Source: Dehalococcoidia bacterium | GTDB lineage: Bacteria; Chloroflexota; Dehalococcoidia; Bin125 | Direction of reading: 5' to 3' | Assembly (NCBI GenBank): GCA_022828105.1 | Contig: JAJEJC010000005.1 | Span: 372,001 to 436,000, forward strand | DNA length: 64,000 bases | In this document: piece after piece, positions 1 to 17,261 of the stretch | How the letters are laid out: each line of letters starts with the position of its first letter | Position numbering within the stretch: position 1 is the stretch's first letter | Made by a program: the position numbers and the translations under genes | Notes under the pieces: model-generated | Told to the model about the DNA's origin: nothing | What the model saw: the letters and a program-made list of their open reading frames with translations, nothing else | The model's database searches: none

Positions 1-228
1 CACATCCGTTTCAGGGCCCAGACCGATTGGTGCAACGAAACCAGAACCGAGCTGTGGCTCGATTCCGATTTCCCCAGCCGTGTCCAATTCACGATAGGTG
101 GTGCCTTTGAGGAATTGGGCACCAGCGCAGATGAAGTCACAAAGAGCGCCAATGGTCTGGCTGCCTTGGTGGATACGGCTACTTACGGAATGATCGGTCT
201 CTGCCACTCGATTGGTGAGACTCAATGA
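1..228 (+). CDS. C-terminal part of an unknown protein, cut by the window edge
   Basis: Frame 1 is open from the first base to a TGA at 226-228 and gives the last 75 residues of a protein. It is too short for an ATG-based ORF search because the start lies outside the window. The stop overlaps the ATG of the next gene in an ATGA arrangement, which implies translational coupling and a shared transcript with the two genes downstream. The visible part has no membrane segment and no motif I recognise. Function unknown. That it is coding rests on the open frame and the tight overlap. Confidence 0.6.
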   Translation, partial: HIRFRAQTDWCNETRTELWLDSDFPSRVQFTIGGAFEELGTSADEVTKSANGLAALVDTATYGMIGLCHSIGETQ

Positions 229-1022
229 GCGCGACACGCAGCGGTTGGAAGCCGCGACACGAGCAATGGCCTAGTACGGGCCCGGAGTTCACCCGAGGTA
301 TCGTCTCTGCGCCAGAAGACACGGACCTCGATGCTCTGGCAGAGTACTTCCATCATCATGGCTTGCCGATGTTGGATTTGCACAATCTGCTGGATCGGCT
401 CCGAGCGCAAACCATCTACAGAAGAACTCTGATCACTGCTGATGATCCGGCTGCAGCAACAGCCGGGTGGCAGGATGCCTACCTTTGGGGCGCCCCAAAA
501 GCGGCGGAGTCGACCGATTCAGGGTTTGTTTCTGGTAGCCAGCACATACAGGTTCCCAGATTGATGGGCAAAAGGGAGGCTGTCACACCGATCGAGAAAG
601 GCTCCACGGAACTCGCTGCCAAGAGCAGAGGTGCCGCTACGGATCGGTCTACAACCCTGGAACTCGATCTTGAGCTACTGAATGATGTGGTGAAGCGCAT
701 CTCTTGGACACCCGAGTGCGACGGTTTGGGACACCCGAAACCCGAGATCGTGATGAAGGCGTTAGGGATAGCCGCTCAAGTCCGCGATGTTGCCGATCCA
801 CCTCTTGTTGCCACGACCGAGGATGGCTCGATCATCTTGGAATGGCAACTCCCAAATGACTCGTCGGTAGAGATTTACATGGAGAACGATTCGCCATTCC
901 CCGGCGAGGTGACAGTGGCAAAAGAAGGCGATGACACCGAGTTCACGTTGGAAAACGTGGCGGCTCTGGCTACTCTTCTGCGATCACTCGCGCGCGAGTC
1001 CGTGAGGCACTCGCGCCGCTAA
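225..1022 (+). CDS. Uncharacterised protein, middle gene of a three-gene overlapping operon
   Basis: This gene encodes 265 residues. The start ATG overlaps the upstream stop by four bases, and its TAA overlaps the next ATG by one base (TAATG). The N-terminal half (about 1-140) is low complexity and probably flexible. The C-terminal half (about 145-250) looks folded and includes a segment reading ATTEDGSIILEWQ near 202-214, followed by alternating hydrophobic strands. From memory, that DG-x-I-x-L-E-W pattern recurs in uncharacterised bacterial proteins encoded just upstream of a small partner gene, as here. There is no signal peptide or transmembrane segment. Its composition is less GC-rich than the metabolic genes further right, which suggests acquisition. 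Function not assignable. Confidence 0.7.
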   Translation: MSATRSGWKPRHEQWPSTGPEFTRGIVSAPEDTDLDALAEYFHHHGLPMLDLHNLLDRLRAQTIYRRTLITADDPAAATAGWQDAYLWGAPKAAESTDSGFVSGSQHIQVPRLMGKREAVTPIEKGSTELAAKSRGAATDRSTTLELDLELLNDVVKRISWTPECDGLGHPKPEIVMKALGIAAQVRDVADPPLVATTEDGSIILEWQLPNDSSVEIYMENDSPFPGEVTVAKEGDDTEFTLENVAALATLLRSLARESVRHSRR

Positions 1023-1432
1023 TGGCAGTGTTCCCGCGACTTGACGACGATGAACTGGTGTTTCGGTTGATTCGACCGGGGGCCGTCAATCGAAACGGAA
1101 CGCTATCCAGAGCGGTGTTCAGCGACTCGAGTCCGCCATCTGTTTATGTCAAAAGCCTGATGCCGGGCAACGACGGCGAACGCCTCCACATAGGTAAGTT
1201 CAAGCACTACGGGCGAGGGCTGGTGTCAGTAGGCCTCATTAGGAGTGTGAGAAAGCCGGGCGAGATTGACGTTCGGCTGACTGGAGAAGCTGAATCCCCT
1301 CACGAGGCATTTTGCGATGCTCATGCGGAAGTGATGGGTCCCACCAAGAATGCCGCGAAAAGGTTGAAGAATGCACTCGTAGAGCACGGCAAGATCGAGA
1401 AGCTCCCGCCCGAACATCTGTGGGGGACATAG
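1022..1432 (+). CDS. Uncharacterised 136-residue protein, partner of the preceding gene
   Basis: Starts within the upstream stop codon (one-base overlap), so it is almost certainly translated together with it. The protein opens with an FRLIRPG segment, has a central AVFSD segment, a GLVSVGLI strand, and a C-terminal HAEVMGPTKNAAKRL helix. This order resembles a widespread group of small uncharacterised proteins that travel with the type of gene found upstream. That similarity is from memory and unverified. No catalytic motif, signal peptide or membrane helix is visible. With its neighbours it could form a toxin-antitoxin-like or defence unit, but nothing in the sequence proves this. Decayed transposases follow directly. 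Confidence 0.65.
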   Translation: MAVFPRLDDDELVFRLIRPGAVNRNGTLSRAVFSDSSPPSVYVKSLMPGNDGERLHIGKFKHYGRGLVSVGLIRSVRKPGEIDVRLTGEAESPHEAFCDAHAEVMGPTKNAAKRLKNALVEHGKIEKLPPEHLWGT

Positions 1433-1448
1433 GCAGCCTGACATCCCG

Positions 1449-1800
1449 TTGACGGACGGACTCCACCTGCCAACGTTGAACGTCAACAGATTGCGGGGTG
1501 GCGAGCCACACACACGACTCACCGACCAGCAGCTGGCGCAAATCGAACCCTCGCTGCAGACCCACAAGGCTGAAACCTGCCGCACCGGGATCGACAACCA
1601 TAAGACGATCTATGGCATCCCTAGGGTGCAGGGGAACGGCGGCGTCTGGCGCAATCTGCCAACCGAGTTGGTCAAATGCAACGAGGGCTACCGACGCTTC
1701 AACCGATCCTCGAAGGCCGAAGCCTACGAGCGCATCCCGAAATCCACTCAGCAGGCTGCTGAAGCACAATCGTGCGAGACCATGGAGGAGGTTCCGATCC
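1449..1800 (+). pseudogene. Decayed IS5-family transposase, N-terminal fragment
   Basis: Between about 1518 and 1740 the frame shows the typical start of an IS5-family transposase (DUF4096-like): LTDQQLAQIEPSL, then a segment matching the usual 'one hit per genome' pattern N-G-I-L-x-x-x-R-T-G-A-P-W-R-D-L-P in altered form (GVWRNLPTEL), then YRRFNRSS. Several normally invariant residues have changed and no DDE catalytic core follows. The open frame continues to 2327 only by chance, reading out of phase through the next transposase remnant. I therefore call this an old fragment and not a 292-residue protein. Confidence 0.6.
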
Positions 1801-1851
1801 GATTCTCGAGGGTAGTCTGCGACGAGCGCCGATTCACAGCGGCAAGCGACA

Positions 1852-2482
1852 ATGATGTTGGGAGTGGCGTCGGACGACTTAGTCCAGAAGGACCACCCGC
1901 TCAGGCGGATCAAGCCCCAGGCGGACTCGGCGCTCAGGCGCATGACACTGCAGTTCAACGAGATCCGCGCGGACACGGGACGGCCCTCGATCCCGCGCGA
2001 GCACGTGCTCAAGGCGATCCTGCCAGCGGCCTTCTACACGGTCCCCTCGCAGCGACGGTTCTGCGAGCAGCTGCGCTACATCCTCTTGTTGAAGTGGTTC
2101 CTGGATCCGAACGTCGAGGACGAGCCGTTCCATCCGACCACCCTCACCAAGAACCGCGAGCGGCTGCTGGACCCCGGTGCGGGGCGGGGGCTGCTCAAGG
2201 AAGTGGTCAAGGAGGCGCGTCAGCGGCGGCTACTGTCCCCAGACCACTTCACGATGTAAGGCACGCTGCTCGATGTCTGGGCATCGCACAAGAGCTACCG
2301 CCCACGCGACGAGCCGCCGCCGCATGACGACCAGCGCGGCGGACGCAGCCGGACGCGGAACCCTAAGGGCGAGCGCCGCCGCCGCGAGACGCACAAGCGA
2401 CCACCGATCCCGAAGCCCGGCTCTGCTCTCTCGGCCACGCTCTGAGCAAGGACCGACACGGCTTGGCCGTGGACGTCGAGTG
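1852..2482 (+). pseudogene. Decayed IS1182/IS5-type transposase (DUF772-like N-terminus)
   Basis: Residues of the first frame (1852-2256) match the N-terminal domain of IS1182-like transposases: KDHPLRRIK, GRPSIPREHVLKAIL, FCEQLRYILLLKWFL, LTKNRERLL and LLSPDHFTM. A TAA at 2257-2259 then stands where the family has the first catalytic Asp (usually V-D-G-T-L). After it the same frame continues with GTLLDVWASHKSYRPRDEP. Near 2390 the match jumps one frame to TTDPEARL, followed by LGHALSKDRHGLAVDVE. The usual intervening residues are missing. So there is a nonsense mutation, an internal deletion with frame change, and no C-terminal half. The element is dead. Its 3' end is cut off near 2482 by what looks like another IS end. 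Confidence 0.75.
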
Positions 2483-2540
2483 TCAACATTGTTGTAGAGC
2501 AGCGACTTTGTCAGTCCAACTGAGCAACGATTCTGTCAAT
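2481..2540 (+). repeat. Isolated IS end with two 19-bp direct repeats
   Basis: A segment beginning TGTCAAC interrupts the transposase remnant. It carries two imperfect direct repeats, at 2497-2515 (GAGCAGCGACTTTGTCAGT) and 2522-2540 (GAGCAACGATTCTGTCAAT). They match at 15 of 19 positions with a 25-bp period, and all differences are transitions. Multiple short terminal repeats after a TGT terminus are typical of IS21-family ends, so this is probably a solo or truncated end of another element. The rest of the gap up to 2771 contains no convincing gene. Confidence 0.4.
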
Positions 2541-2771
2541 ATCACCCTGTTCTGATAAGGATGGACCAGGGCGGTCTCGGCGTCCAGGCACCCCGTTGGT
2601 ATGGATGCGGTTGCTCACGGTCGTGCGCGAGAATCCTCACAGTCGAGAGGTCGCCCGCATCGACGGGCCTTGCAGTTGGGCCTGCTGCATCGCCTTCTTG
2701 CGGGCGAGTCGGCGAGACGTGGTCGTCGGCCAACTCATCGCCCTGCATGAGCGGAGTCGCCCGGAGGGGAA

Positions 2772-2819
2772 TGATGATCTGATTTGGCCCCGGTTTGATC
2801 ATCGTAACTGGCCCCACCT
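2772..2819 (+). repeat. Left end of the IS21 element
   Basis: Terminal inverted repeat at 2772-2791, followed by the internal repeat AACTGGCCCCACCT at 2806-2819. The string TTTGATC lies between them, as it does between the two repeats of the right end when that is read on the other strand. Confidence 0.7.
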
Positions 2820-2830
2820 CGCGGATGGGT

Positions 2831-3613
2831 TCAGGTCTGTGGAGCACCTCCTTTGGCGGATTCGGAGAGCCGGAGCCGGTAGGAGTCGGAGCCGGTCTCG
2901 ATGATGTGGGCGCGGAAGGTGAGGCGGTCGACGACGGCGGCGGCGAGGCGGGGATCTTCGAAGGTCTGACCCCATTCGGAGAACGGCGCGTTGGAGGCGA
3001 CGGCGACGGAGGCGCGCTCCTCGCGCTCGGTCAGGATCTGGAAGAGCAGTTCGGCGCCGCGCGGGTCGAGGTGGACGTAGTTGAGTTCGTCCAGGCAGAG
3101 CAGGTCGAGCCGGCCGTAGCGGGCGACGAGGCGTGAGAGCTGGCGCTCGTCGGCGGCCTCGGCGAGTTCGTTGACCAGGGCGGCGGCGGTCGTATAGCGC
3201 ACGCGCGGGCCGCGCTGGCAGGCGGCGATGCCGAGTCCGATCAGCAGGTGCGACTTGCCGGTACCGCTGTCGCCGAGCAGCACGACCGGCTCGGCCGCGT
3301 CGATCCAGTCGCCGCGTTCGAGTGCTGTGAGCAAGGCCGGGTCGACGGAGGGCGCGGCGGAGAGGTCGAAGTCGGCGAGCTGCTTGAGCCGGGGGAAGCG
3401 CGCTTCGCGGATGCGGCGTTCACGGCGCCGGGCGTTGCGGTCCTCGAGTTCGGCGGTCAGCAGCTCGGCCAGGAAGGCGAGATGGCTGAGCCGGTCGCGC
3501 AGGGCCGCTTCGGCCATCGAGTCGGCCTGCTGGCGGACGGTCGGCAGGTGCAGGGCGCGAGCGGCCGACTCGATCGCGAGGCTGGCCGCCTGTTCGGTCA
3601 GGGGTGCGTTCAT
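2831..3613 (-). CDS. istB: IS21-family helper ATPase IstB
   Basis: AAA+ ATPase of 260 residues that acts as helper and target-selection protein for the IstA transposase, related to DnaC. Walker A is GDSGTGKSH near residues 114-122 and Walker B is LLCLDELN near 170-177. A sensor-type VAVASNAP follows near 203-210. Length is normal for IstB. The ATG overlaps the end of istA by four bases, so the two are translationally coupled as is usual in IS21 elements. The C-terminal tail reaches almost to the left inverted end. It lies on the same strand as istA and has no visible frameshift. Confidence 0.93.
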   Translation of the reverse strand: MNAPLTEQAASLAIESAARALHLPTVRQQADSMAEAALRDRLSHLAFLAELLTAELEDRNARRRERRIREARFPRLKQLADFDLSAAPSVDPALLTALERGDWIDAAEPVVLLGDSGTGKSHLLIGLGIAACQRGPRVRYTTAAALVNELAEAADERQLSRLVARYGRLDLLCLDELNYVHLDPRGAELLFQILTEREERASVAVASNAPFSEWGQTFEDPRLAAAVVDRLTFRAHIIETGSDSYRLRLSESAKGGAPQT

Positions 3614-5139
3614 CGGGCGCTCCCCACCAGCAGGCTGTCGTAGCCCGCGAGGCTCGGCGGGGGGCGCTGGAAGCGTTCCAGCCGCGGCGGCGCCGGGGCC
3701 GGGCTCTGACGGCGGCGGTCGGCGATCCGGCGCGCCTCGATCGCGACCAGGGCGGGGTCCGCGGAGCCGGCCTGAGCGACCGCCTCGAGCGCCTCGTGCA
3801 CAGCGTCGAAGGGCAGGCGCCGATGCCAGAGCAGGACCTCGATCAGCGCGCGTGTGCCCTGGGCGTCGCCGAGCCGGCGGCGGGCCCGCTGCCAGAAGCG
3901 CTCGTGCGCGGCCGTGAAGCGGCCTGAGGCCCTCGCCTGGTCGAGGGCGCTGGCGCCGGGCAACGCGCCCGGCTTGCGCAACAGGACTTCGAGGTAGTGG
4001 TCCAGCATCAGCACCTCGGACCCCTTGCGCAGGCTGCGCTCATGCTGGGCGATCAACTGGCCGCCGGCCACGACCTCGAGACTGCCGCCGCCGAGGCGCA
4101 CCTCCACTGAGCGGCCCGCGTACGCGGCGGGCACCGAGTAGCGCGAGCCGTGCACCGAGATCCGCGCCTTGCGGTCGACCTTGGCGCGCAACGGGACGGT
4201 CGGGTCGAACGGGTCGGCGGGCAGCGGGCGCAGCGCCGAGCGCTCCGCCTCCGCCATCTGGCCGACCGTGGCCAGGCGACCGGCGATGTGACGCCCGTCG
4301 TCCATGCGGTCAGCGGCTGCCAGCAGCGCGTTCAACTCGGCCAGGCTTCCGACGCGCGGGACCGGGACCAGGTGACGCCGGCGGAAGCGTCCGACCTCTC
4401 CCTCGACCCCGCCCTTCTCGTGGGCGCCCTCCACGCCCGGCGCACAGAAGAACGCGTCGAAGCCGAAGTGCGAGCGCAGCGCGGTGAAGCGGTCGCTCTC
4501 GACCCGCTCGCGCCCGGCCAGCACGCGCACCACCGCCGCCTTGAGGTTGTCGTAGCGCAGCCGGCCGGGCACCCCGCCGAAGCGCTCGAAGGCGGCCACG
4601 TGGCCTTCCAGGAACGCTTCCTGGCCTTCGCTCGGGAAGCAGACATGCACAGCCCGGCCTGAGTGGGAGAGCCGCATGACGAACATCGAGAGCTCGGTCA
4701 GCGCTCCATCGAGCCAGACGCTGACCCGGCCGAAGTCGACCTCCGCCTCTGCGCCCGGCGGATGCAACTGGGGCACGGTCACGGCCACCTGGCCGGACTC
4801 CAGCTCGCGCCGCACGCGGGCCACGTAGGCGCGCACCGTCGGCTCGGCCACCCTGGCTCCCCGTTCATCAACCAGCCGCTGCCAGATGCGCCGCGCCGTG
4901 TGCCGCTGCTTGCGCGGCGCGCTGAGGTCGGCGACCAGCCACTCGCGGATCGTCTCGTGGTGCGGACCCAGCAGCGGCGCCGGCCGAGGGCAGGGCTGGC
5001 GCGGCGGCGGCAGCGCTGAATGCAACGCCTGACGCACCGTCCGCCGGTGCACACCGTGGCGGCGCGAGAGGCCGCGAATCGACACGCCCTCTTCTCGTCG
5101 GTCTCGTCGGATACGCTCGAACAACTCCACCTTCGACAA
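3610..5139 (-). CDS. istA: IS21-family transposase IstA
   Basis: DDE transposase of 509 residues. The N-terminus (about 1-40) is a helix-turn-helix domain with GVSIRGLSRRHGVHRRTVR. The catalytic core shows the three acidic positions in the expected contexts: Asp in AEVDFG near 134, Asp in RYDNLK near 198, and Glu in GGVEGEVGRF near 249. A beta-barrel-like part with YSVPAAYAG follows. Length and order are normal for the family. It is the first gene of the element and is followed by istB with a four-base overlap. Any promoter must lie within the right terminal repeats (5140-5258). Confidence 0.93.
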   Translation of the reverse strand: MSKVELFERIRRDRREEGVSIRGLSRRHGVHRRTVRQALHSALPPPRQPCPRPAPLLGPHHETIREWLVADLSAPRKQRHTARRIWQRLVDERGARVAEPTVRAYVARVRRELESGQVAVTVPQLHPPGAEAEVDFGRVSVWLDGALTELSMFVMRLSHSGRAVHVCFPSEGQEAFLEGHVAAFERFGGVPGRLRYDNLKAAVVRVLAGRERVESDRFTALRSHFGFDAFFCAPGVEGAHEKGGVEGEVGRFRRRHLVPVPRVGSLAELNALLAAADRMDDGRHIAGRLATVGQMAEAERSALRPLPADPFDPTVPLRAKVDRKARISVHGSRYSVPAAYAGRSVEVRLGGGSLEVVAGGQLIAQHERSLRKGSEVLMLDHYLEVLLRKPGALPGASALDQARASGRFTAAHERFWQRARRRLGDAQGTRALIEVLLWHRRLPFDAVHEALEAVAQAGSADPALVAIEARRIADRRRQSPAPAPPRLERFQRPPPSLAGYDSLLVGSAR

Positions 5140-5200
5140 CTCCTCGTCCTTCGCTGCGGGTAACTCACGATCACCCGAGCCTAGTCACCGGATCGGTCGG

Positions 5201-5258
5201 AGGTGGGGCCACTTCCTAGGATCAAAACGGCCCCAGGTGGGGCCACTTCAGACAATCA
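5201..5258 (+). repeat. Right end of the IS21 element
   Basis: Two exact copies of AGGTGGGGCCACTT (5201-5214 and 5235-5248) with a 34-bp period, ending in the terminal inverted repeat 5239-5258. These are probably transposase binding sites next to the istA start. Confidence 0.7.
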
Positions 5259-5585
5259 CTCCCACCCGGAGGTGGCGCGTGAGTAGAAAGTCAGCTGCAA
5301 CAGGTCGGGCGACGCCTGGAGTTGCCCTCCCTCGTCTAGCATGAATGCCTCCAAAGGAATACCTCTGCACGCGACGGGACCTACACATGCTTCAGCCGCG
5401 AAGGACATTTTGGTGCTCACAGCGCCACCTCCCAGACGAACGTTCGCAGTACAGTCCCTCTTGGCCTACCACCCCAATCCACATTGACCTGCTTGCCCTC
5501 TCCCAGTCCCCCTGCGTGCGCAGGGGCAGGCTCTGACCCGCTCAGGGACCCGCTCGGCTTCTCTGCTTCACGCAGGGGCCCGCTC
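5259..5585. other. Non-coding gap with repeat copy and short hairpins
   Basis: No gene is visible here. It contains one copy of a 64-bp direct repeat (5411-5473, listed separately). From about 5508 to 5600 several short GC palindromes occur, such as CCCCTGCGTGCGCAGGGG and CCGCTTCGCGG, of the kind found in extragenic repeats elsewhere in the window. Confidence 0.5.
5411..5473 (+). repeat. Copy 1 of a diverged 64-bp direct repeat
   Basis: Aligns in the same orientation with 9201-9264, with about eight substitutions and one single-base gap. The last 15 bases, TCTTGGCCTACCACC, are identical. The two copies bracket the methylase/ParB-like cassette, so they could be remnants of attachment sites or of the ends of a mobile element. 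Confidence 0.6.
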
Positions 5586-5873
5586 CTACTCCGCTTCGCG
5601 GAGGGGTGGGAGATTGTCGACGATCTTCATCGTCTCGACGCTGACGGTGGTGACCCGCTTGATCAGGTCGACGTTGTAGCGGGGGTTGGGCGGGTCGAGC
5701 TCCAGGCCCCAGTCATTGACGTCGTTGACGATGCCGGAGGCCTTGTCGACACGGATGCGGTAACGGTCGATCAGCCACTCCAGCGCGGTGCGGGGACCGA
5801 CGACGTAGCGATGCGCCTTAGAGAGTGAATGACCAACGTGATCGGCTACCCGCACTGCCGTCAGCGGATCCAA
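5586..5873 (-). pseudogene. C-terminal remnant of a large helicase-type restriction protein (type ISP-like)
   Basis: The last ~75 codons read YVVGPRTALEWLIDRY, then KASGIVNDVNDW, PRYNVDLIKRVTTVSVETM and IVDNLPPL. This is the signature C-terminus of very large (about 1,500-residue) predicted helicase/nuclease-methylase proteins of the type ISP or COG4889 class. Everything upstream is missing: only about 20 unrelated residues separate the match from a possible TTG start at 5873, and the dam-like gene ends 69 bp further upstream. So the gene has lost about 95% of its length. Its position suggests it was once the last gene of the leftward cassette and supplied the helicase/nuclease activity. Confidence 0.7.
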
Positions 5874-5942
5874 GCAATGGGGGTGAACGATCCCTCGTTG
5901 CCGCTTTGAGAAACTCCAGCCAGCCTGGGTGAGTGTGCTGGC

Positions 5943-6812
5943 TCATTTGGGTCGGTCGCCGGCCAGACTCAGGGCCAAAGGCGTACGTAGAGCCTTGGGC
6001 GTGATCAGGACCTCCTCACCCTGACGTCGTTCCGCTGCGGTGTAACGCAGCGAGAAGCTCTGGATGTTCGCCCATTCCTCGTAGAGATTGCGAACCTCCG
6101 GGCAGTCGTCATAGGTCAGTACCCAGACTGCGCTGTCGCCAATGCCCCGCAGCTTCTCGGCGAGGCGCTCGTGGTAATCGGGAAGTGGGACGTTCAGATA
6201 CAGCCTCGATCCCTTGCCGTAGTAAGGCGGGTCGATGAAGAACATCGTCGAAGCCCGGTCCAGTGTCCCGATGAATTCGATGCCATCGAGGCCCGTAACA
6301 CCAATCTGCTGGCGATGTTCCGCGACCCGCTGCAAGCGCTCGCGCAGCTTTGGCCGATTGAAGCGGGCACTGATCTTCCACGGCCCGCTCTGGTCGAGTC
6401 CGCCGATGACACCGCCATCCTTGATGATTCCCGACCGATTGCAGCGGTTGAGGTAGAACGCCGAGAAACCGAGTTCCAGGCGCGATGGTCCGCCAGCCCG
6501 GTAGATGTCCCGCTGCCTGATCCACTCTTCTACCGACACGGGGCGCTCGTCGAGCAGGTTGAGCAGCGCCTCGCTCTCATGGACCGCGGACTGCCAGAAG
6601 GCGTGGATCGCTGGGTCAAAGTCATTGATGTGGATCTTCTGCGTCTGGCCGTGGTACAGCAAGGAGAGCGAAGCGCCTGCGCCTCCTGCGAACGGCTCGG
6701 CGACGGCGTGGTCGCAGAGCTCATTCAAGCCCCGTATCTCACCTAGGACGCCGGCCAAAGAGGACTTTCCGCCGGGGTAGCGGAGGGGACTTGCGATCCT
6801 CATACCCACCAT
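5943..6812 (-). CDS. DNA adenine N6-methyltransferase, D12/Dam class
   Basis: Encodes 289 residues. The AdoMet-binding start PLRYPGGKSSL lies near 9-19, the F-x-G-G motif (EPFAGGAGASLSLL) near 38-51, and the catalytic DPPYYGKGSRLY near 193-204. All are typical of D12-class methylases that transfer methyl to adenine N6. The length suits one complete domain. It lies 27 bp downstream of the unknown gene at 6840 and is co-directional with the ParB-like gene, so the three probably form one transcript. As part of a cassette with a helicase remnant, it is more likely a protective methylase of a restriction-type system than a housekeeping Dam. An alternative start is the ATG three codons in. Confidence 0.9.
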   Translation of the reverse strand: MVGMRIASPLRYPGGKSSLAGVLGEIRGLNELCDHAVAEPFAGGAGASLSLLYHGQTQKIHINDFDPAIHAFWQSAVHESEALLNLLDERPVSVEEWIRQRDIYRAGGPSRLELGFSAFYLNRCNRSGIIKDGGVIGGLDQSGPWKISARFNRPKLRERLQRVAEHRQQIGVTGLDGIEFIGTLDRASTMFFIDPPYYGKGSRLYLNVPLPDYHERLAEKLRGIGDSAVWVLTYDDCPEVRNLYEEWANIQSFSLRYTAAERRQGEEVLITPKALRTPLALSLAGDRPK

Positions 6813-6839
6813 CGTCCCACTATTGCGACTGCGGTGTTC

Positions 6840-7787
6840 TCACGATGATGACCCGAGTGCCGCAACGGTCCATGATGAGCAGCGGGCCACGAGTTCGTCG
6901 TCGAGATCGCCGAGCAGCCGCGCAATTCGTAGGCGGTCGAACAGAAGTTGTCGCTCGTGCCGTGCGTCGATTTCCCAATGCGGCTCTCCGATTTGCCTCG
7001 GGACGAAGAAAGCCGCGAACGGCGAAAACGCCGGCGGTTCTAGCATCCACGACCGACAGAAATGAGAAGGCTGGAGTTCAGTGATCTTGCCTCTCCAATT
7101 CTGGCCTGCGGCACATTGGCCGAACACGCTCATCTGGTTCAGACGACCGTCTTCGAACGGCACCCACACCGCGAGATCGAGTCCGGCGTCCTTCATGTCT
7201 GACGCCTTCATTCTATCGGCGCAGCCGCCCCCCTCACCCATCATCCCGCACAGGTCATCGATCGCCTGCCGGAACGACCGCAGAGTCTGTGGCCGCGGGA
7301 ACCCGAAATTGAACGAGCGCACGCTGGGCGCGCCGCCGAGGTACTTGACCAATGCGGCCGCGCTAAGCTTCTCGAACAGCGAACTGCCTTCCAAGGTTCC
7401 GTCGAACAGCGGCCCGAAGTGTGTGAGCGCCGCGAGGAAGGCATATGGGGATGCCAAGGCCCATTCCTCCGCGGTGAGCAAAGAGCCGTCCACGCTGAAC
7501 GGGTAGGCTGCTCCGACCATCTCCTCGCGCTCCGCAAGCAGTTCGAAAGCGGCATCTGCGACTGCTTCGAGTTCGTCATCCTCGGTCTCAACGGGTTCAT
7601 CGAGCGGCTCGTCGTCGTCGAGTTCGTCGGCCTCGCCGACTGCGTCGATCGAGCCGGCACGGCTGATTGCGTTCGTCAGATCGTGACCCGAACTCTCCGA
7701 GTCGCCAGCGACGATCGCTGTCAGTTCGAGCCAATCAGCGTGCGCGATTGCACCAGACGAGACTTCTGGGGCGCGTAATGTCGGCAG
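6840..7787 (-). CDS. Uncharacterised cassette protein, possible restriction-type nuclease fold; non-ATG start
   Basis: The frame clearly encodes protein for about 90 residues upstream of the first ATG (7520): LPTLRAPEVSSGAIA, ADWLELTAIVAG and a long acidic stretch (roughly 7560-7640). No ATG, GTG or TTG exists in that stretch. The best start is CTG at 7785-7787, nine bases after an AAGGAG that lies inside the end of the ParB-like gene. ATA at 7794-7796 is a second option. The protein (about 315 residues) is soluble. It contains AGLDLAVWVPFEDG and MSVFGQCAAGQNWRGKITELQP near the C-terminal third. The Asp followed by a G-Q-C strand vaguely recalls the D-x(n)-Q-x-K core of Mrr-like nucleases, with Lys missing. 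That link is speculative. I recall the family as an uncharacterised companion of ParB-like proteins. Confidence 0.75.
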   Translation of the reverse strand: MPTLRAPEVSSGAIAHADWLELTAIVAGDSESSGHDLTNAISRAGSIDAVGEADELDDDEPLDEPVETEDDELEAVADAAFELLAEREEMVGAAYPFSVDGSLLTAEEWALASPYAFLAALTHFGPLFDGTLEGSSLFEKLSAAALVKYLGGAPSVRSFNFGFPRPQTLRSFRQAIDDLCGMMGEGGGCADRMKASDMKDAGLDLAVWVPFEDGRLNQMSVFGQCAAGQNWRGKITELQPSHFCRSWMLEPPAFSPFAAFFVPRQIGEPHWEIDARHERQLLFDRLRIARLLGDLDDELVARCSSWTVAALGSSS

Positions 7788-7792
7788 GACTG

Positions 7793-8920
7793 CTATCTCC
7801 TTCTTGACGAACGGCGACTCTTGTTGCGACGCTTCGTGACGATGTCTTGCATATCATCGTGCAGCGCCTCGGACAGCGTGACAATCTGTCCGATCTCTTC
7901 GAGTTGGTCCGCCTCACCGACGAACCCTGTCAGCACCTTCCCGCGCGCCTTCTGGAGCGCCTGCCTAGCCTCAACCAACCCTTCGCGGAACAAGGCGGTG
8001 TCGCCGCGATGGACATCGTATGCGACGGATAGACCCAGGCCGACCCGGAGTGCGCTGAGACCGCCCTTCGACTGAAGCGCCTCGTCTAGCTGCCGGAGAT
8101 GTGGATTCTGGGTCTTGATCTCTGGCTTGATGTCTCGAGTCTTGTCGCCCCATAGCCAGACGCATAGCTCGCCGAACTGCTTCATCTTACGTGTAGGTAT
8201 CGGCATATCGGTCGGCGGCTCGAGGTCGGCTATCCCGGTGAAGTCCTGGATGCCGCGATAGTCGAGGCCGGTGTAGAGGTGCGAAAACGCGAACCGTTTG
8301 CGAGATCGCTGCTTATCCACATCGTACACACCGGCGGCCCTGGCCTGCACGAGCGCCATGTACGAACGGTAGAGGCGGGCGACCGTCCGGTGCCGGTCGC
8401 CGATGGTCTCCGCGATGTCGGCGAGATCCTTGCCGACGTCGTTCCTAACCCAGGCAATGTACTCGGCCTTCGCGAAGGAGCCCCATGCTTGCGGGCCGTT
8501 GACGTGCTTGAATCCGACGTACTGCCAGACTTCGTCGCGGCGACGTCGGATCACGGGCAGCGTGTCCAACAAGGCGACCTCTTCTGGCGAGACCGACGGC
8601 AAGTCAGTGGCCTTCATCCTCTCGCGGAGGTCTGGCTCGCGCAGCAGGCGGACCGCAGCAAGCCTGCGGTTACCTTCAATGACGACGAGCGCGCCGTCCT
8701 CCTCCGCGGCGAACAGTGCTTCGTGCGGGAAATAGCCGTTGCGCGCGATGGACCACGCCACCTCGTCCACGGAGTACTCGCGCCACAGGATGTTGAGGAT
8801 CTCGTCCTGGCTGAGGCGCTCGCTCGTGCGTTGGATGCGGGGATTTCGCGCATCCAGACGCAACTCCCCGACCGGCACCTGCTCCGGCGCGTATAACTCC
8901 GCCGGGGTTTTCGTCGTCAT
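7793..8920 (-). CDS. ParB N-terminal-domain (ParB/Srx-like) protein of a defence-type cassette
   Basis: A 375-residue protein. The N-terminal ~110 residues carry the ParB/sulfiredoxin-like fold: VPVGELRLDARNPR near 14-27 and VIEGNRRLAAVRLL near 79-92, the latter matching the G-x-R-R-x-x-A nucleotide-binding box. The remaining part is helical, with a Lys/Arg tail. It lacks the ParB helix-turn-helix spacing and centromere context, so plasmid partition is unlikely. Such domains also occur in DNA-modification systems and have nucleotidase or regulatory roles. I chose the ATG at 8920 over the longer frame from 9046 because the extension has no family character and a GGAGG precedes 8920. It is the first gene of the leftward cassette. 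Confidence 0.8.
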   Translation of the reverse strand: MTTKTPAELYAPEQVPVGELRLDARNPRIQRTSERLSQDEILNILWREYSVDEVAWSIARNGYFPHEALFAAEEDGALVVIEGNRRLAAVRLLREPDLRERMKATDLPSVSPEEVALLDTLPVIRRRRDEVWQYVGFKHVNGPQAWGSFAKAEYIAWVRNDVGKDLADIAETIGDRHRTVARLYRSYMALVQARAAGVYDVDKQRSRKRFAFSHLYTGLDYRGIQDFTGIADLEPPTDMPIPTRKMKQFGELCVWLWGDKTRDIKPEIKTQNPHLRQLDEALQSKGGLSALRVGLGLSVAYDVHRGDTALFREGLVEARQALQKARGKVLTGFVGEADQLEEIGQIVTLSEALHDDMQDIVTKRRNKSRRSSRRR

Positions 8921-9387
8921 GCGCCTGCAGCCTCCGCGAGGACGGGCGTAGTCTACCGCGGTTGCGTGCGCTGCGTCTGCCGCGCACAACCTCCAGCAAC
9001 CGGAGTTTAGGGTGGCCACCAGCGCGCCGCTAAGCGACCCAGGCACTGTGCGCCTCCCTGAGCTGGGAGGGAAAACAGGATGCGCTCAGCTTCACGCCGG
9101 CTGCCGTCCCGTGTCGCATGGTGAGCCCTTAAGCGAACATTGGCTGGAGACTGCCCTGACTCTGCAATCGGCGGACTCGGACACCGACTACAGTGTCCAA
9201 TTGGTGCCTCACAAAGCCACTTCCCAAACGAACGCTTGCAGTACACCCCCTCTTGGCCTACCACCTGCGACCAACACCGGACGGCTGGTTGTTGACGAAG
9301 GGCGCTCGCGTTCGTCCGCCGTTGCAGCAATTTCAGTCGCAACTGTGCATGCGCGGCTCGGCGGCGCATCCGCCGAGGCGCGGGCGC
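8921..9387. other. Non-coding gap upstream of the ParB-like gene
   Basis: No gene is supported here; the overlapping short frames on both strands have no recognisable content. It should hold the promoter of the ParB-like gene (near 8930-9050, not resolved). It also contains the second copy of the 64-bp direct repeat at 9201-9264. Confidence 0.5.
9201..9264 (+). repeat. Copy 2 of the diverged 64-bp direct repeat
   Basis: Same orientation as 5411-5473, with an identical 15-bp end TCTTGGCCTACCACC and roughly 86% identity overall by eye. The repeats are about 3.8 kb apart and flank the ParB-like/unknown/methylase genes. Confidence 0.6.
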
Positions 9388-10449
9388 TCAGTCGGCCAGT
9401 GTGAACGTCTCGGCCGGGGGGTTGGGGAAGTCGTCGGGCCAGAGCAGGCGGGCGAGGTCCTCGGCGCCTCGGATGTTCCAGTAGGACAGCGTCGTGAAGT
9501 GCTTGCTCTCGACCACGTACACCGCGCCGTCGCGGATCGCCGGGACCTCGGCCAGCGCCTCGTTGTTGAGCAGGCTCCGGCGGAACTCCTCGGCGCCGAA
9601 TTCGAGCGGCTGGGGAATGATGATGATCTCCGGCGCCATCGCGATCACGCCCTCAAGGCTGGTCGTCTGATTGCCGCTGATCCCCGCGGTCTCGGCCGCG
9701 TTGACGCCGCCGGCCGCGACGATTACGCCGCCCTCGGTCGAGTCGCCGCCCGCGACCCAGAGCGTGTCCGAGTACAGCGTCAGCGCCAGCACGCTCGGTT
9801 GCGGAGACTGCTCGACGGTGACGGAGACCAATGATTCGTAGCGCGCCTGGACCTCATCGGCGAACGCGAACGCGCGCTCCTCTTCGCCGAAGATGTAGCC
9901 CATCAGCAGGATGCTGTTGACCCGCCCGTCGGGTCCCTGGATCAGCTCGGTCTGGATCACCGGGATGCCGACGCGCTGCAGGGCCTCGACGGCTTCGATC
10001 GGGAAGAATGGGCTGGTCACGACGACATCGGGCGACTGCGCGATGATCACCTCGGGATCGCGGGAGATCTCGGGCTTGTCCTGCACCTGCGCGGCGATGT
10101 TCGAGTAGGTGACGTCCTTGCTCACCGCGCCGACCGCGACCAGGCGTTCGTTGGGGACCAAGGCCAGCGTGACCTCGTCGTGTCCGATCGAGGCGGTGAT
10201 GATCCGCCGCGGCTTGGCCGCAATCGAGACGACGCCGTTCAGACCTTCGACCTCGCGCGGCCAGCCGAGGTTGTCGGGGTCGACGATGCCGCGCACGCCT
10301 TCAAGCGTGCTCGCGGACGCTCGCTGCTCGGCCGCTTGCTGCGCCGACTCGTCCGAGCCGCAGGCAAGTAAGGCCAGCGCGGCGATCAGAACCGCCAGTG
10401 ATCCGATCCAACGCGACGATGATCCAACCAATGGGAACGATGCGAACAT
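9388..10449 (-). CDS. Periplasmic/lipoprotein cobalamin-type ABC transporter substrate-binding protein (BtuF-like)
   Basis: A 353-residue secreted lipoprotein. The signal has a hydrophobic core at about 15-28 and the lipobox LLAC near 28-31, so Cys31 is the likely lipid anchor. The mature part has the two-lobed TroA/BtuF fold: PRRIITASIGHDEVTLAL near 81-98 and PEVIIAQSPDVVVTS near 132-146, then the second lobe with PEIIIIPQPLEF and GAVYVVESKHFTTLSYW. A cobalamin riboswitch lies immediately upstream, so the ligand is probably vitamin B12 or another corrinoid. AAGGAG at 10456-10461 is ideally placed before the ATG. No permease or ATPase gene adjoins it within the window, so the rest of the transporter must be elsewhere. 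Confidence 0.85.
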   Translation of the reverse strand: MFASFPLVGSSSRWIGSLAVLIAALALLACGSDESAQQAAEQRASASTLEGVRGIVDPDNLGWPREVEGLNGVVSIAAKPRRIITASIGHDEVTLALVPNERLVAVGAVSKDVTYSNIAAQVQDKPEISRDPEVIIAQSPDVVVTSPFFPIEAVEALQRVGIPVIQTELIQGPDGRVNSILLMGYIFGEEERAFAFADEVQARYESLVSVTVEQSPQPSVLALTLYSDTLWVAGGDSTEGGVIVAAGGVNAAETAGISGNQTTSLEGVIAMAPEIIIIPQPLEFGAEEFRRSLLNNEALAEVPAIRDGAVYVVESKHFTTLSYWNIRGAEDLARLLWPDDFPNPPAETFTLAD

Positions 10450-12714: not shown

Positions 12715-13572
12715 TCAGCGACCTTGGAAGTCCGGCTCGCGGCGCTCTCGCAAGGCGGCGCGCGCCTCGTCGGCGTCCGCCGAGGTGGCCAAGATCGGCG
12801 ACGCGTTGGAGGTCAGCACGGCGGTCGTCTCCAGCGTGCTGTCCATCGCGGCGCGGATCACTCGCTTGTTGATCCAGGTCACCAGCGGCGGATTGCGCAT
12901 AATCCGCGCGCACAGCGCGCGCACCTCGTCCTCCAGATCATCGGACGGGACGAGCCGGTTGAGCACGCCCCACTCGGCCGCCGTCTGCGCGTCGAGGTGT
13001 CCGGTAAAGGAGAACTCCAGCGCCCGGCCCAATCCGGCCAGGCGGGTCAGGTAGTATGCGCCGCCGTTCTCGATGATCTGGCCGACCTGCTGATAGGCGA
13101 TGAAGCGGGTGTGCTCGCAGCCATAACGGATGTCGCACTGCAAGGCCATGTCCATCCCGAACCCGGCGGCGACTCCGTTGACCATTGCGACGGTCGGCTT
13201 GCGCACGTAGGAGATGTCGCGCATCAGCTTGGTCAGTCCGTAGAAGAAGCGCTGGCGAGTCGCGTCCAGACCGCCCGGCTCGTAGGGAGCATTGCCCAGA
13301 TAGTTGTCGTCGGGCTCGAACTCGCCGAGGTCGGAGCCGCGCACATCGACGCCGGCGCAAAATCCGCGACCCATGCCGGTCAGCACGATCACCTTGACGT
13401 CGGGATCGTCGTCCGCGGCGCGCATGTATTCGCCGACCTTGGCCAGCGTGCCGGTCCGTTCGGTTCCGCCGACGGCGGCGTTCAGCTTCTCCGGCCGGTT
13501 GAAACGAATCCAAAGAATGCCGTTGTCTTCCTTCTCGTAGAGCAGATAGGGAACTAACTCGAGCTGTTGCAT
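12715..13572 (-). CDS. Enoyl-CoA hydratase/isomerase-family (crotonase) protein
   Basis: A 285-residue crotonase-fold protein. The oxyanion-hole segment GMGRGFCAGVDVRG near 66-79 and the MVNGVAAGFGMDMAL segment near 129-143 bind acyl-CoA and are clear. At the two positions where true enoyl-CoA hydratases carry catalytic Glu, I see Asp (in GMDMA) and Gln (in YQQVG). It may therefore be an isomerase, a hydrolase, a C-C lyase or another crotonase-type enzyme. The alignment is by eye. Within the operon it probably processes a CoA thioester made or used by the flanking SDRs. Its end is 19 bp from the next gene and its start 13 bp from the previous one. Confidence 0.87.
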   Translation of the reverse strand: MQQLELVPYLLYEKEDNGILWIRFNRPEKLNAAVGGTERTGTLAKVGEYMRAADDDPDVKVIVLTGMGRGFCAGVDVRGSDLGEFEPDDNYLGNAPYEPGGLDATRQRFFYGLTKLMRDISYVRKPTVAMVNGVAAGFGMDMALQCDIRYGCEHTRFIAYQQVGQIIENGGAYYLTRLAGLGRALEFSFTGHLDAQTAAEWGVLNRLVPSDDLEDEVRALCARIMRNPPLVTWINKRVIRAAMDSTLETTAVLTSNASPILATSADADEARAALRERREPDFQGR

Positions 13573-13585
13573 CGTGGACTCCCCT

Positions 13586-14350
13586 TCAGCCGCGACCGAA
13601 CAACGGCATCTTGGTTGCCATCACGGTGATGAACGGCACATTGGCGTCGAGCGGCAGGCGGGCCATGTAGAGAATCGCCTCGGCGACGTGCTCGACGTCA
13701 AAGGTCGGCTCGGGCATCCGCTCGCCGTTCGGTTGCGGCACGCCGCGGCCCATTGCGGCGGTCATCTCGGTGGCTGCGTTGCCGATGTCGATCTGTCCGC
13801 AGGCGATGTCGTACTTGCGCCCGTCGAGCGCAGTCGACTTGGTCAGCCCGGTCAGCGCGTGCTTGGTCGCGGTGTAGGGCGCGGAGTTGGGCCGCGGCCG
13901 GTCGGCGGAGATCGACCCGTTGTTGATGATCCGCCCCCCGCGCGGGTCCTGGTCCTTCATGATCCGGAACGCCTCCTGGGTGCAGAGGAAGCACGCGGTC
14001 AGATTGAGGTCGACGGTGTACTTCCACTGCTCAACGGTCAGGTCTTCGAGCAACAGCGGCGGCGCGCCGCCTCCGGCGTTGTTGAAGAGCAGGTCGAGCC
14101 GTCCGAACTCCTCGCGCACGCGAGCGAAGAGCGAGGCGATCGAGTCCGCGACGGTCACGTCGGACACGACGGCCAGCGACCGCGCCGCGTCGTCGCCGGC
14201 CATCTGTTGGGTCTCTTCGAGCCGCTCGATCCGTCGTCCCGAGAGCACCACCGACCAGCCGTCGCGCAGCAGCGCCAGCGCCGAGGCGCGGCCGACGCCC
14301 GAACCGGCGCCGGTGATCAGCGCGACGGGATTGTGTACGTCATTCGTCAT
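13586..14350 (-). CDS. Short-chain dehydrogenase/reductase (SDR)
   Basis: A classical SDR of about 254 residues. T-G-A-G-S-G-V-G near 13-20 is the canonical NAD(P) loop, NNAGGG near 91-96 the stabilising motif, and Ser (INNGSIS) with Y-T-A-T-K (PYTATKHAL) the catalytic set. I prefer the ATG at 14350 to the longer frame from 14401 because the fold begins with ALITGAG shortly after it. The start overlaps the end of the hydroxypyruvate isomerase-like gene by 11 bp, giving translational coupling. It is the second gene of the operon. The substrate is unknown; in context, an alcohol or ketone intermediate feeding a CoA-linked pathway is likely. Confidence 0.88.
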
Positions 14351-15110
14351 CTGCCGGACCTTTCCCGATGCCCCAGGCTCGCGCCCAGCCGAGACCCGCA
14401 AGCGTTCCGTTGCGCGGTCGGTATTCGCAACCGACCCAGCCGTCGAATCCCAACTCGTCGATCATGGACAGGACACACGAGTAGTTGATCTCCTGCCGAC
14501 CGTCAGGCTCGTGCCGCCCGGGCACGCCGCTGATCTGGACGTGACCGATCAGATCGATGTGTGCCGCGATCGTGTCGGCCAGGTTTCCTTCCATGATCTG
14601 CATGTGGTAGCAGTCGTACTGCATTCGCAGGTTCTCGCGACCGACGCGCTCGATGATCCGCCGCGTCTGAGCGCTGCCGGTCAGGAAGTAGCCGGGATTG
14701 TCGGTCGTATTGAGCGGTTCCAACATGATCCGGGCGTCCTGCTGGGCAGCGCGGTCGGCGGCCCAGCGCAGGTTGTCGATGAACGTCGCTTCGGCGTCGG
14801 GCTGATCGGTGCGTCCGGCGAGGCAGTGAATCTGGCCGCACTGCAGCGCCGATGCGTACTCCAGCGCGGCATCGATCCCGCGACGGAACTCACACTGCTC
14901 GCCCGGCACGGCGGCGAGCGCGACGGGCGTGTTGATCAGCGCCACGCTCAGACCGGCCTCTCGCGCCCTCGCGGCCAGCGCGGCCGGCGACTCCGAGTAC
15001 GGCGCCTGGATCTCGACCGCGCGAAAGCCGGCGTCGGCCGCTGCCTGGAAGCGGTCGAGCAATACGGCTTCCTGGAACATCCACGACACGCTGGCGGCGA
15101 GCTTGGGCAT
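14340..15110 (-). CDS. hyi: Hydroxypyruvate isomerase-family sugar isomerase (TIM barrel)
   Basis: Encodes 256 residues, the normal length for Hyi/OtnI proteins, which interconvert hydroxypyruvate and tartronate semialdehyde or related keto acids. The AP-endonuclease-2-like barrel shows [14 protein letters not shown] near 129-142 with the catalytic Glu, [14 protein letters not shown] near 163-176 with metal-binding Asp and His, [13 protein letters not shown] near 190-202, and CEYRPRNGT near 229-237 with the second Glu. It heads a leftward operon of four genes. The start at 15110 faces the divergent Rieske oxygenase gene with an 88-bp shared promoter region. Family assignment is strong; the exact substrate is not. 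Confidence 0.85.
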
Positions 15111-15198
15111 ATCGGCATGCTAGGCGCTGCCTGCTCCGGTCACGGCAGCCAGTCCAAGGGTCGGGCATAGACTGAGCGCGAATCACGAGGAGCGGGAA

Positions 15199-16851
15199 AT
15201 GAAGACGGAAGTTCACCCACTCAGCGGCGAGACCTACACGGAACTCGGCGAGGGCAAGGTCCGCGTCGACAAGGCGCAGAAGTACGGCATCTTCGACTGG
15301 GAGGGTCGTCACCTCGAAGGGGAACTGAAGCACGCCGACCCGCATCTGCTGCAGTGGGTCGGCGGCCCGGAGATTGCGCGTCGTCGCAACGGCGGGAACG
15401 GCCGCGGCGAGCAGGACGCGCGCACCAGCACGCTCCGTGCCCAGCAAAGCGCCGAAGCGGCCGAAGCGCAATACGCGGGCGGCACGGCGCTGTCCGGCGA
15501 GATCGACGACCGCTACACGCGCTACACGGGCGACCCCGGGCGCGAGACACCCGACGGCGTCCGTTCGACCGGTATCTCATTCCCTGAGCTGCTGGAGATG
15601 GACCAGTACCCCGAGCGCATCCCCGAGACGCTGCGGATGGAGCGCTCGCAGCCCGGCGGCGTGCGCAAGGTCCCGACGGAGCGATACTTCAGCAAGCGGT
15701 GGCACGACCTCGAAGTTGAGCGGCTGTGGAAGCGGGTCTGGCAGATGGCCTGCCACGTGGACGACATCCCCGAGATCGGCGACTACATCGTCTACGACGT
15801 AGCGCATCTCTCCTGGATCGTCGTGCGCACCGGCGCACACGAGTTCAAGGCCTACAACAACGCCTGCCTGCATCGCGGCCGCCAGCTCCGCGAGTTCGAC
15901 GGCAAGCAGGCGACCGAGTTTCGCTGCCCGTTCCACGGTTGGTGCTGGGAGCTGGACGGCTCGCTGCGCGAGATTCCTTCGGAGTGGGACTTTCCCGAAG
16001 TGCGGGAAGACGCCGGACAGTTGCCCGAAGCGCAGGTCGGCACGTGGGGCGGATTCGTGTTCATCAACCCGGATCCCGATTGTGAGCCGTTCGAGGACTT
16101 CCTCGGTTCCCTGCCCGCACACTTCGAGAAATACGACTACGAGACCAAGTACAAACAGATGCACGTCGCCAAAGTGGTGCGGGCCAACTGGAAGGTGAAC
16201 CAGGAAGCCTTCATGGAGGGCTACCACATCATCGCCACGCACCCGCAACTGATGATCTACGGCGGCGACGGCGCAAATCACCAGTACGACTCGTTCGATA
16301 ACTGGTCGCGCGCGATCACGCTGGCGGTGCGGACGAGTCCGCACCGCGATATCCATCCGCCGCGCGAGGAGCTGTCGGAATCGCGCAACAAGATGGCCGA
16401 CATGATGCGCGAGAGCCTGCGCGAGGTGATCGGCGATCGTGTCGACGTCTACTGCGACGCCGAACTGATTGACGGGCAGTACAACAACCTGTTCCCCAAC
16501 TTCCATCCCTGGGGCTCGTTCAGCCGGATCGTGTACCGCTTCCGTCCCTACGGCGACGACCCCGAGATGTCGATCATGGAGGTGATGTACCTCTCGCCCT
16601 GGCCGGAAGACCAGCCGAAGCCGCCGGCCGCGCCGATCCACTGGCTGGGCCCGGACGAGCACTGGACCGAAGCGCCGGAGATGGGCGGGCTCGCGCGGGT
16701 GCTTAATCAGGACAGCTACAACCTGCCCAAGATTCAGAAGGGTCTCAGGGCCAAGGTCAATCCCTACATCTATCTCGCCGCCTACGAAGAGGGCAAGATC
16801 CGCCACTTCCACGATCTGTACGACGCGTGGGTCGCCAGCGACGAGGGCTGA
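15199..16851 (+). CDS. Rieske non-haem iron oxygenase, large (alpha) subunit with an extended N-terminus
   Basis: A 550-residue protein. The Rieske [2Fe-2S] motif is C-L-H-R-G near 223-227 and C-P-F-H-G-W near 243-248. The catalytic domain has NWKVNQEAFMEGYHIIATHP near 334-353, whose E-G-Y-H-x4-H supplies the mononuclear iron ligands. Most alpha subunits are about 400-460 residues. Here about 165 residues precede the Rieske domain, including an Arg/Gln/Ala-rich low-complexity section (about 60-110) of unknown role. The start has GAGGAG upstream. No beta subunit, ferredoxin or reductase is adjacent. It probably hydroxylates or dealkylates an aromatic or alicyclic substrate. Confidence 0.88.
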   Translation: MKTEVHPLSGETYTELGEGKVRVDKAQKYGIFDWEGRHLEGELKHADPHLLQWVGGPEIARRRNGGNGRGEQDARTSTLRAQQSAEAAEAQYAGGTALSGEIDDRYTRYTGDPGRETPDGVRSTGISFPELLEMDQYPERIPETLRMERSQPGGVRKVPTERYFSKRWHDLEVERLWKRVWQMACHVDDIPEIGDYIVYDVAHLSWIVVRTGAHEFKAYNNACLHRGRQLREFDGKQATEFRCPFHGWCWELDGSLREIPSEWDFPEVREDAGQLPEAQVGTWGGFVFINPDPDCEPFEDFLGSLPAHFEKYDYETKYKQMHVAKVVRANWKVNQEAFMEGYHIIATHPQLMIYGGDGANHQYDSFDNWSRAITLAVRTSPHRDIHPPREELSESRNKMADMMRESLREVIGDRVDVYCDAELIDGQYNNLFPNFHPWGSFSRIVYRFRPYGDDPEMSIMEVMYLSPWPEDQPKPPAAPIHWLGPDEHWTEAPEMGGLARVLNQDSYNLPKIQKGLRAKVNPYIYLAAYEEGKIRHFHDLYDAWVASDEG

Positions 16852-16861
16852 GCCGCCAACA

Positions 16862-17254
16862 CTATTCCGACTGGTAGACCGGCGAATCAGGCGAGGATGC
16901 CGCGGCCGCCCGGGCGGTCACCAGCATCGCGCGGATGCGTTCCGCTTGCTGTTCGCGTTCCTCGCCGCTCAACGAGTAAGCATGGGCGCTAATGCCGCCG
17001 ATGTCGTGCGCTCCCCAGACGACGACCAGGTCCTCGATCTCGTCCAGTACTGCTGCCGGCACCGCCTTGCGTGGTAACCGCAGCTCCGCGATTCGCGTCC
17101 ACGCCGACGTGAGCGCCGCGGCGCTCACCGGCTGCGTAGATAGGTCGGCAACTGCCGCTCGGAGGCGCAACAGCGTCGGCTCAAGCTGTTGCGCCGTGTA
17201 GGTCGCGTCCTCGTCCTCGCGGAACATCTGCGGCAGGTCAATGTCTTCGGACAT
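16862..17254 (-). CDS. Small hypothetical protein co-transcribed with the P450
   Basis: A soluble 130-residue protein, mostly helical, with an acidic start (SEDIDLPQMFREDED) and a centre reading LDEIEDLVVVWGAHDIGG. I do not recognise the family. The ATG at 17254 lies only 7 bp after the P450 stop codon, so it is translated from the same leftward message. The longer frame from 17323 would overlap the P450 by about 60 bp and adds a Cys/Ser-rich segment without protein character, so I reject it. Its stop is 10 bp from the convergent stop of the Rieske gene. A role in P450 function is only suggested by position. Confidence 0.6.
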   Translation of the reverse strand: MSEDIDLPQMFREDEDATYTAQQLEPTLLRLRAAVADLSTQPVSAAALTSAWTRIAELRLPRKAVPAAVLDEIEDLVVVWGAHDIGGISAHAYSLSGEEREQQAERIRAMLVTARAAAASSPDSPVYQSE

Positions 17255-17261
17255 CGCGACT

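Follow-up and report, generated by a model that had tools for sequence, protein, structure and literature searches.

The locus described here raises the question of whether a group of neighbouring genes in a Dehalococcoidia genome is the remnant of a larger anti-phage system or a complete system in its own right. In the 64,000-nucleotide stretch of DNA that was analysed (the window), a preliminary description made from the letters alone had noted three leftward genes, for a ParB-like protein, an unknown protein with an odd start and a D12 adenine methylase, followed by the end of a helicase-type restriction protein. It had read these as a four-gene system whose effector was deleted and whose modification part was kept. 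All four elements were found in place. The ParB-like gene (7793-8920, reverse strand) encodes 375 aa from an ATG at 8920, while gene 2 (6840-7787, reverse strand) encodes 315 aa, a predicted PD-(D/E)XK restriction nuclease, from a putative CTG start at 7785-7787. The third gene (5943-6812, reverse strand) encodes a D12-class N6-adenine DNA methyltransferase of 289 aa with a DPPY motif, and its proposed class was borne out by Pfam (PF02086, E 3e-10).

The ParB-like gene, gene 2 and the D12 methylase gene are one real unit. Two other Chloroflexota MAGs, L002 and L003, have kept the gene order and are 84-85% identical in DNA sequence along about 3.2-3.5 kb. By blastn the homology covers window positions 5812-9262 (85%) in L002 and 5848-9001 (84%) in L003; this includes a conserved 3' flank of the cassette (5812-5942), common to L002 as far as 5812 and to L003 as far as 5848. 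A sigma-70 promoter scan gave no signal above chance. Viral-contig scans with ParB and gene 2 alignments, together with phage, plasmid and genome matches, gathered 99 distinct ParB loci. Gene 2 lies immediately downstream in 95 of these. Recurrence of the pair or the trio in about 95 distinct loci, together with the conservation in L002 and L003, speaks against a chance arrangement. Where loci were found by ParB alone, gene 2 was present in 77 of 80, and two of the three exceptions lie at a contig edge. A methylase adjoins ParB and gene 2 in 88 of the 95 loci (49 C5-cytosine, 33 D12 and six of N6/N4 type). The viral contigs are partly redundant, and clustering ParB at 85% identity left 73 loci, with 40 C5, 21 D12 and six N4 methylases and six loci without a methylase. 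An adjacent methylase is absent from ParB and gene 2 in L012, L013 and L054, and in L004 a C5 gene lies just upstream; in loci without an adjacent methylase, the effector might be independent of one.

Among the hosts of the cassette are Chloroflexota and Actinobacteria, plasmids from Mesorhizobium, Neorhizobium, Vibrio and Persicobacter, Pseudomonas phage D14A, and Wφ and 12474III, which are P2-like phages. Its place in 12474III is after the portal gene Q, and a defence hotspot of P2 has been mapped from the portal gene by Vassallo et al. (PMC9519451). The genes gp98-gp96-mth of phage Wφ are the same cassette, with ParB and gene 2 of the same families, but mth encodes a HaeIII-like C5 methylase and is convergent, whereas the methylase of the window is an adenine methylase in the same orientation as its partners. 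Of 5426 complete E. coli genomes, 103 (~2%) contain 80% or more of the Wφ cassette, and gene 2 is annotated as 'hypothetical protein' among the matches listed. Within the class to which the window belongs, gene 2 is rare (4/197 genomes).

The odd start of the second protein was noted correctly, as its frame has no ATG, GTG or TTG before residue 94. An AAGGAG ribosome-binding-like site (7797-7802, reverse strand) precedes a CTG at 7785-7787, nine bases past the GGAG, and the ParB gene ends nearby with TAG (7793-7795, reverse strand). The CTG and the purine-rich site are retained in L002 and L003, the closest two relatives, and a canonical start is absent at this place in only three of 95 gene 2 sequences, namely those of the window, L002 and L003. 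From this pattern we infer that gene 2 starts at the CTG. A start at the first canonical codon (7520) would cost the protein D17 and E20, which are 97-98% conserved, and was rejected for this reason. A weak CTG start could keep the level of the nuclease low.

The product of gene 2 is likely a nuclease of the PD-(D/E)XK fold, and the likely effector of the cassette. Its AF2 model (pLDDT 89.3, from an alignment of 70 relatives) is covered well by structural matches only at residues 112-303, which align with MspJI (Z 8.2), AF1548, N.BspD6I, BsmI, PaqCI, AspBHI (Z 6.8) and FokI; a Z of about 8 is close to background for such models and weak alone, yet nearly all of the top matches are nucleases. 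MspJI was also the top Foldseek match to the model (E 2e-3), and a D...Q motif in the gene 2 profile aligned to the MspJI catalytic region (E 0.037). The predicted active-site stretch (7086-7178, reverse strand) contains D203 (7176-7178), Q223 (7116-7118) and K233 (7086-7088), counting the residue next to the CTG as 1. Among the 70 relatives, D203 and Q223 are conserved at 100% and K233 at 95%; the lysine is found as K233 only in 66, in a Q-x-K arrangement only in three, in both places in one and in neither in none. This putative active-site pattern adds support for the nuclease reading that is independent of the structural match. None of the 70 gene 2 members had a convincing match in Pfam, NCBIfam or PADLOC; the family corresponds to PHROG 14650 (E 8e-21), which is listed as of unknown function, and no recognition domain was identified. 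Structure prediction thus gave the 315-residue protein, which the preliminary description had left without a role, a PD-(D/E)XK fold with MspJI as best match. As gene 2 is a predicted nuclease and still in place, the effector would be retained, and the claim that it had been deleted does not hold.

The ParB-like protein consists of a ParB/Srx-type N-domain, a KorB/Noc-like central helical domain and long C-terminal helices, and matches PHROG 3694 over its full length (E 1e-67). Its AF2 model (pLDDT 91.6) resembles KorB (8qa9, Z 10.9 over 202 residues), ParB and Noc, with the N-domain also matching sulfiredoxin, and across 65 relatives the EGNRR motif, H139, W146 and K151 do not vary. Judged from the model, the protein would bind nucleotide and load onto DNA. 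ParB-like domains of other conflict systems have been reported as NTPases and nucleases (PMC5512222), therefore it is possible that ParB itself is a nuclease. ParB accompanies nearly every gene 2 and the identities of the two co-vary (rho 0.81), which argues for, but is not proof of, a requirement of gene 2 for ParB.

While ParB and the predicted nuclease appear as a constant, co-evolving core, sequence comparison places the methylase as an exchangeable module. The methylases of the relatives fall into three chemical classes, i.e., C5-cytosine, D12 adenine and N6/N4, and the ParB tree shows a minimum of five switches of class. Correlations of pairwise identity, which come from related sequences and are not independent tests, were high for ParB with gene 2 (0.81 in the 21 D12 cassettes, 0.83 in the 40 C5 cassettes) and lower for ParB with the methylase (0.13 and 0.51, respectively). 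The methylase does track ParB among the N4-type cassettes (0.89), though six are too few to weigh. The nearest solved structure to the C5 methylases is M.HaeIII, which by analogy suggests a GGCC-like target. If the nuclease had a fixed target site of its own, such swapping of methylase class would be difficult to explain.

These observations make it probable that the cassette is a complete three-gene, restriction-modification-like anti-phage system, in which gene 2 cuts unmarked DNA with ParB as obligate partner and the methylase marks self. The adjacent methylase, a D12 adenine methylase in the window, would mark host DNA as self; the ParB-like protein, with nucleotide, would load on or scan DNA and probably license or position the nuclease; and gene 2 would then cut DNA without the host mark. 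Cleavage, methylation-based discrimination of self from non-self, ParB as loader or licensor and the anti-phage function itself are what we infer from the composition and models of the cassette. The target could be chosen by ParB, by gene 2 or by a docked methylase, and the outcome could be restriction or cell suicide. The combination of a predicted PD-(D/E)XK nuclease and a DNA methylase in one small unit is shared with Type II restriction-modification, but here there is a constant third, ParB-like subunit, and the methylase class swaps while the nuclease core stays. The defence-type reading of the preliminary description is thus kept, and the cassette looks like an overlooked, widespread restriction system whose effector belongs to a family that Pfam, NCBIfam and PADLOC do not name. 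Exchange of the methylase class around a kept nuclease core turns the seat of restriction specificity into a testable question, and a possible function can be offered for three cargo genes of Wφ, a laboratory phage.

One tentative form of this reading, which we consider possible but not the likelier case, is that of a plug-in system, in which the core of ParB and nuclease lacks a target site and reads its specificity from the docked methylase. If true, adenine, N4/N6 and C5 methylases could be exchanged without rebuilding the nuclease, and the logic of type I and BREX systems, in which the methylase is the recognition subunit, would be extended across methylase classes in a three-gene unit.

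The closest of the known systems is PD-λ-5, which protects E. coli broadly, was assayed in a host without mrr, and was termed a compacted RM+Abi system by Vassallo et al. (PMC9519451). The N-terminal 231 columns of the window ParB are homologous to its component A (hhalign 99.9%; PADLOC 1.4e-18), the D12 protein of the window matches PD-Lambda-5_B (PDLC04018, E 5e-94 over 274 residues), and both systems are carried by temperate phages. This raises a rival reading, in which the cassette is a variant of PD-λ-5 with the same ParB sensor and methylase, gene 2 takes the place of the fused C-terminal domain, and disturbance of the methylase leads to abortive infection instead of restriction at specific sites. 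However, PD-λ-5 has two genes, and its component A is a single protein of 430-590 aa with its own C-terminal domain, whereas the window ParB has 375 aa, matches only about the first 170 positions of component A and is accompanied by a separate predicted nuclease. Gene 2 was rejected as a detached C-terminus of component A (hhalign homology probability 0.2%), and most relatives of the cassette carry C5 rather than D12 methylases, so we regard the variant reading as a minority possibility. Two-gene relatives do occur: L009 matches PD-Lambda-5_A over its full length, and its ParB-plus-D12 layout recurs in L008 and L014, but all three share only the N-terminal region of ParB with the window protein, and their C-terminus is unrelated to gene 2. 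Since it lacks the fused C-terminal domain by which component A is defined, the window cassette is best described by sequence as a sister arrangement of PD-λ-5 and not as a member. The PADLOC candidate PDC-M38A (715 aa) matches ParB relatives with its N-terminal half over about 300 residues, and its second half has no match in the cassette. That no named system equals the cassette was upheld among those tested, PD-λ-5 being the nearest; a literature search for a system of ParB, nuclease and methylase found none in open-access papers, and a report elsewhere is possible.

The resemblance to MspJI and AspBHI, the best structural matches, could also be taken to mean that the nuclease module is type IV-like and depends on modification of its target, the methylase being a hitchhiker. 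Gene 2 is predicted to share with these enzymes the nuclease domain fold and the D...Q active-site pattern with a lysine, but the matched part is the nuclease domain, which is common to many cutters of unmodified DNA, and the gene 2 lysine usually lies downstream (W..K) and not in Q-x-K. Moreover, 88 of 95 loci have a methylase next to gene 2, which would turn the host into a target and makes this explanation improbable.

The four-gene system with a deleted helicase effector, as first proposed, fares worse still. It was suggested by a C-terminal remnant of a type ISP restriction protein (5586-5807, reverse strand) that abuts the cassette, and this was described correctly in so far as the final ~75 codons of the ORF at 5586-5873 match the type ISP C-terminus (Pfam 5e-9, PADLOC 4e-27). 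The remnant and the ISP protein of L157 are 70% identical in 77 aligned residues (72% in DNA over window 5587-5807). The initial ~20 codons of the ORF are cassette 3' flank, and by blastn the cassette block and the ISP block meet sharply at 5807/5812, with only the final codons of an ISP protein across this junction and no full-length one in the operon. The ORF was not found as a complete small protein in relatives, in keeping with a remnant, though of an unrelated system. When the ORFs of cassette loci were searched with thirty ISP proteins, only the window scrap matched, so the full-length COG4889-like helicase proposed as a partner accompanies none of the other cassettes examined. L002 and L003 have the cassette and no ISP at that border, and ISP is common in the class without the cassette (24/148 genomes). 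Type ISP and the cassette have no component in common and are not linked at the other cassette loci examined. On synteny and the sharp junction we rejected the four-gene system as highly improbable; the sequence comparisons make the ISP scrap unrelated debris at an insertion border.

That these are partition (ParB) genes of a plasmid or phage next to an unrelated methylase is the least credible reading, for which only the ParB fold speaks, since the constant partner is a predicted nuclease and no ParA adjoins the ParB-like gene in the window, where the neighbours are IS21 genes and a periplasmic-binding protein.

The surroundings of the cassette offer some further observations. A direct repeat of about 65 bp is present just twice in the genome, and its copies, which are 86% identical, flank the cassette and the ISP scrap: copy A (5410-5473, forward strand) on the outer side of the ISP remnant, and copy B (9201-9265, forward strand), within which the L002 cassette homology stops, at 9262. 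The repeat may be a recombination site or a dispersed intergenic repeat; its copies might be the ends of a mobile element, although the same-genus relative L193 carries just one, close to the same gene for a binding protein. Beside the cassette, 1852-5139 holds transposon debris, with a DUF772 transposase fragment and an intact-looking IS21 istA/istB pair, and on the other side lies the periplasmic-binding-protein gene (9388-10449). In several same-genus genomes, the place that the cassette occupies in the window is taken by a run of about three genes on one strand, possibly a transporter operon, which the binding-protein gene faces. At other loci, a SMODS-like nucleotidyltransferase gene (L173, 11231-12073) adjoins a sister cassette, and on the Neorhizobium plasmid L013 genes for a C5 methylase, DUF262, Z1 and DUF4420 (1-5867), likely a defence island, lie upstream of ParB and gene 2. 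The L003 contig, which carries a sister cassette, also has a ResIII/SWI2-SNF2 helicase beside an N6_N4 methylase (13119-17319), possibly another restriction system.
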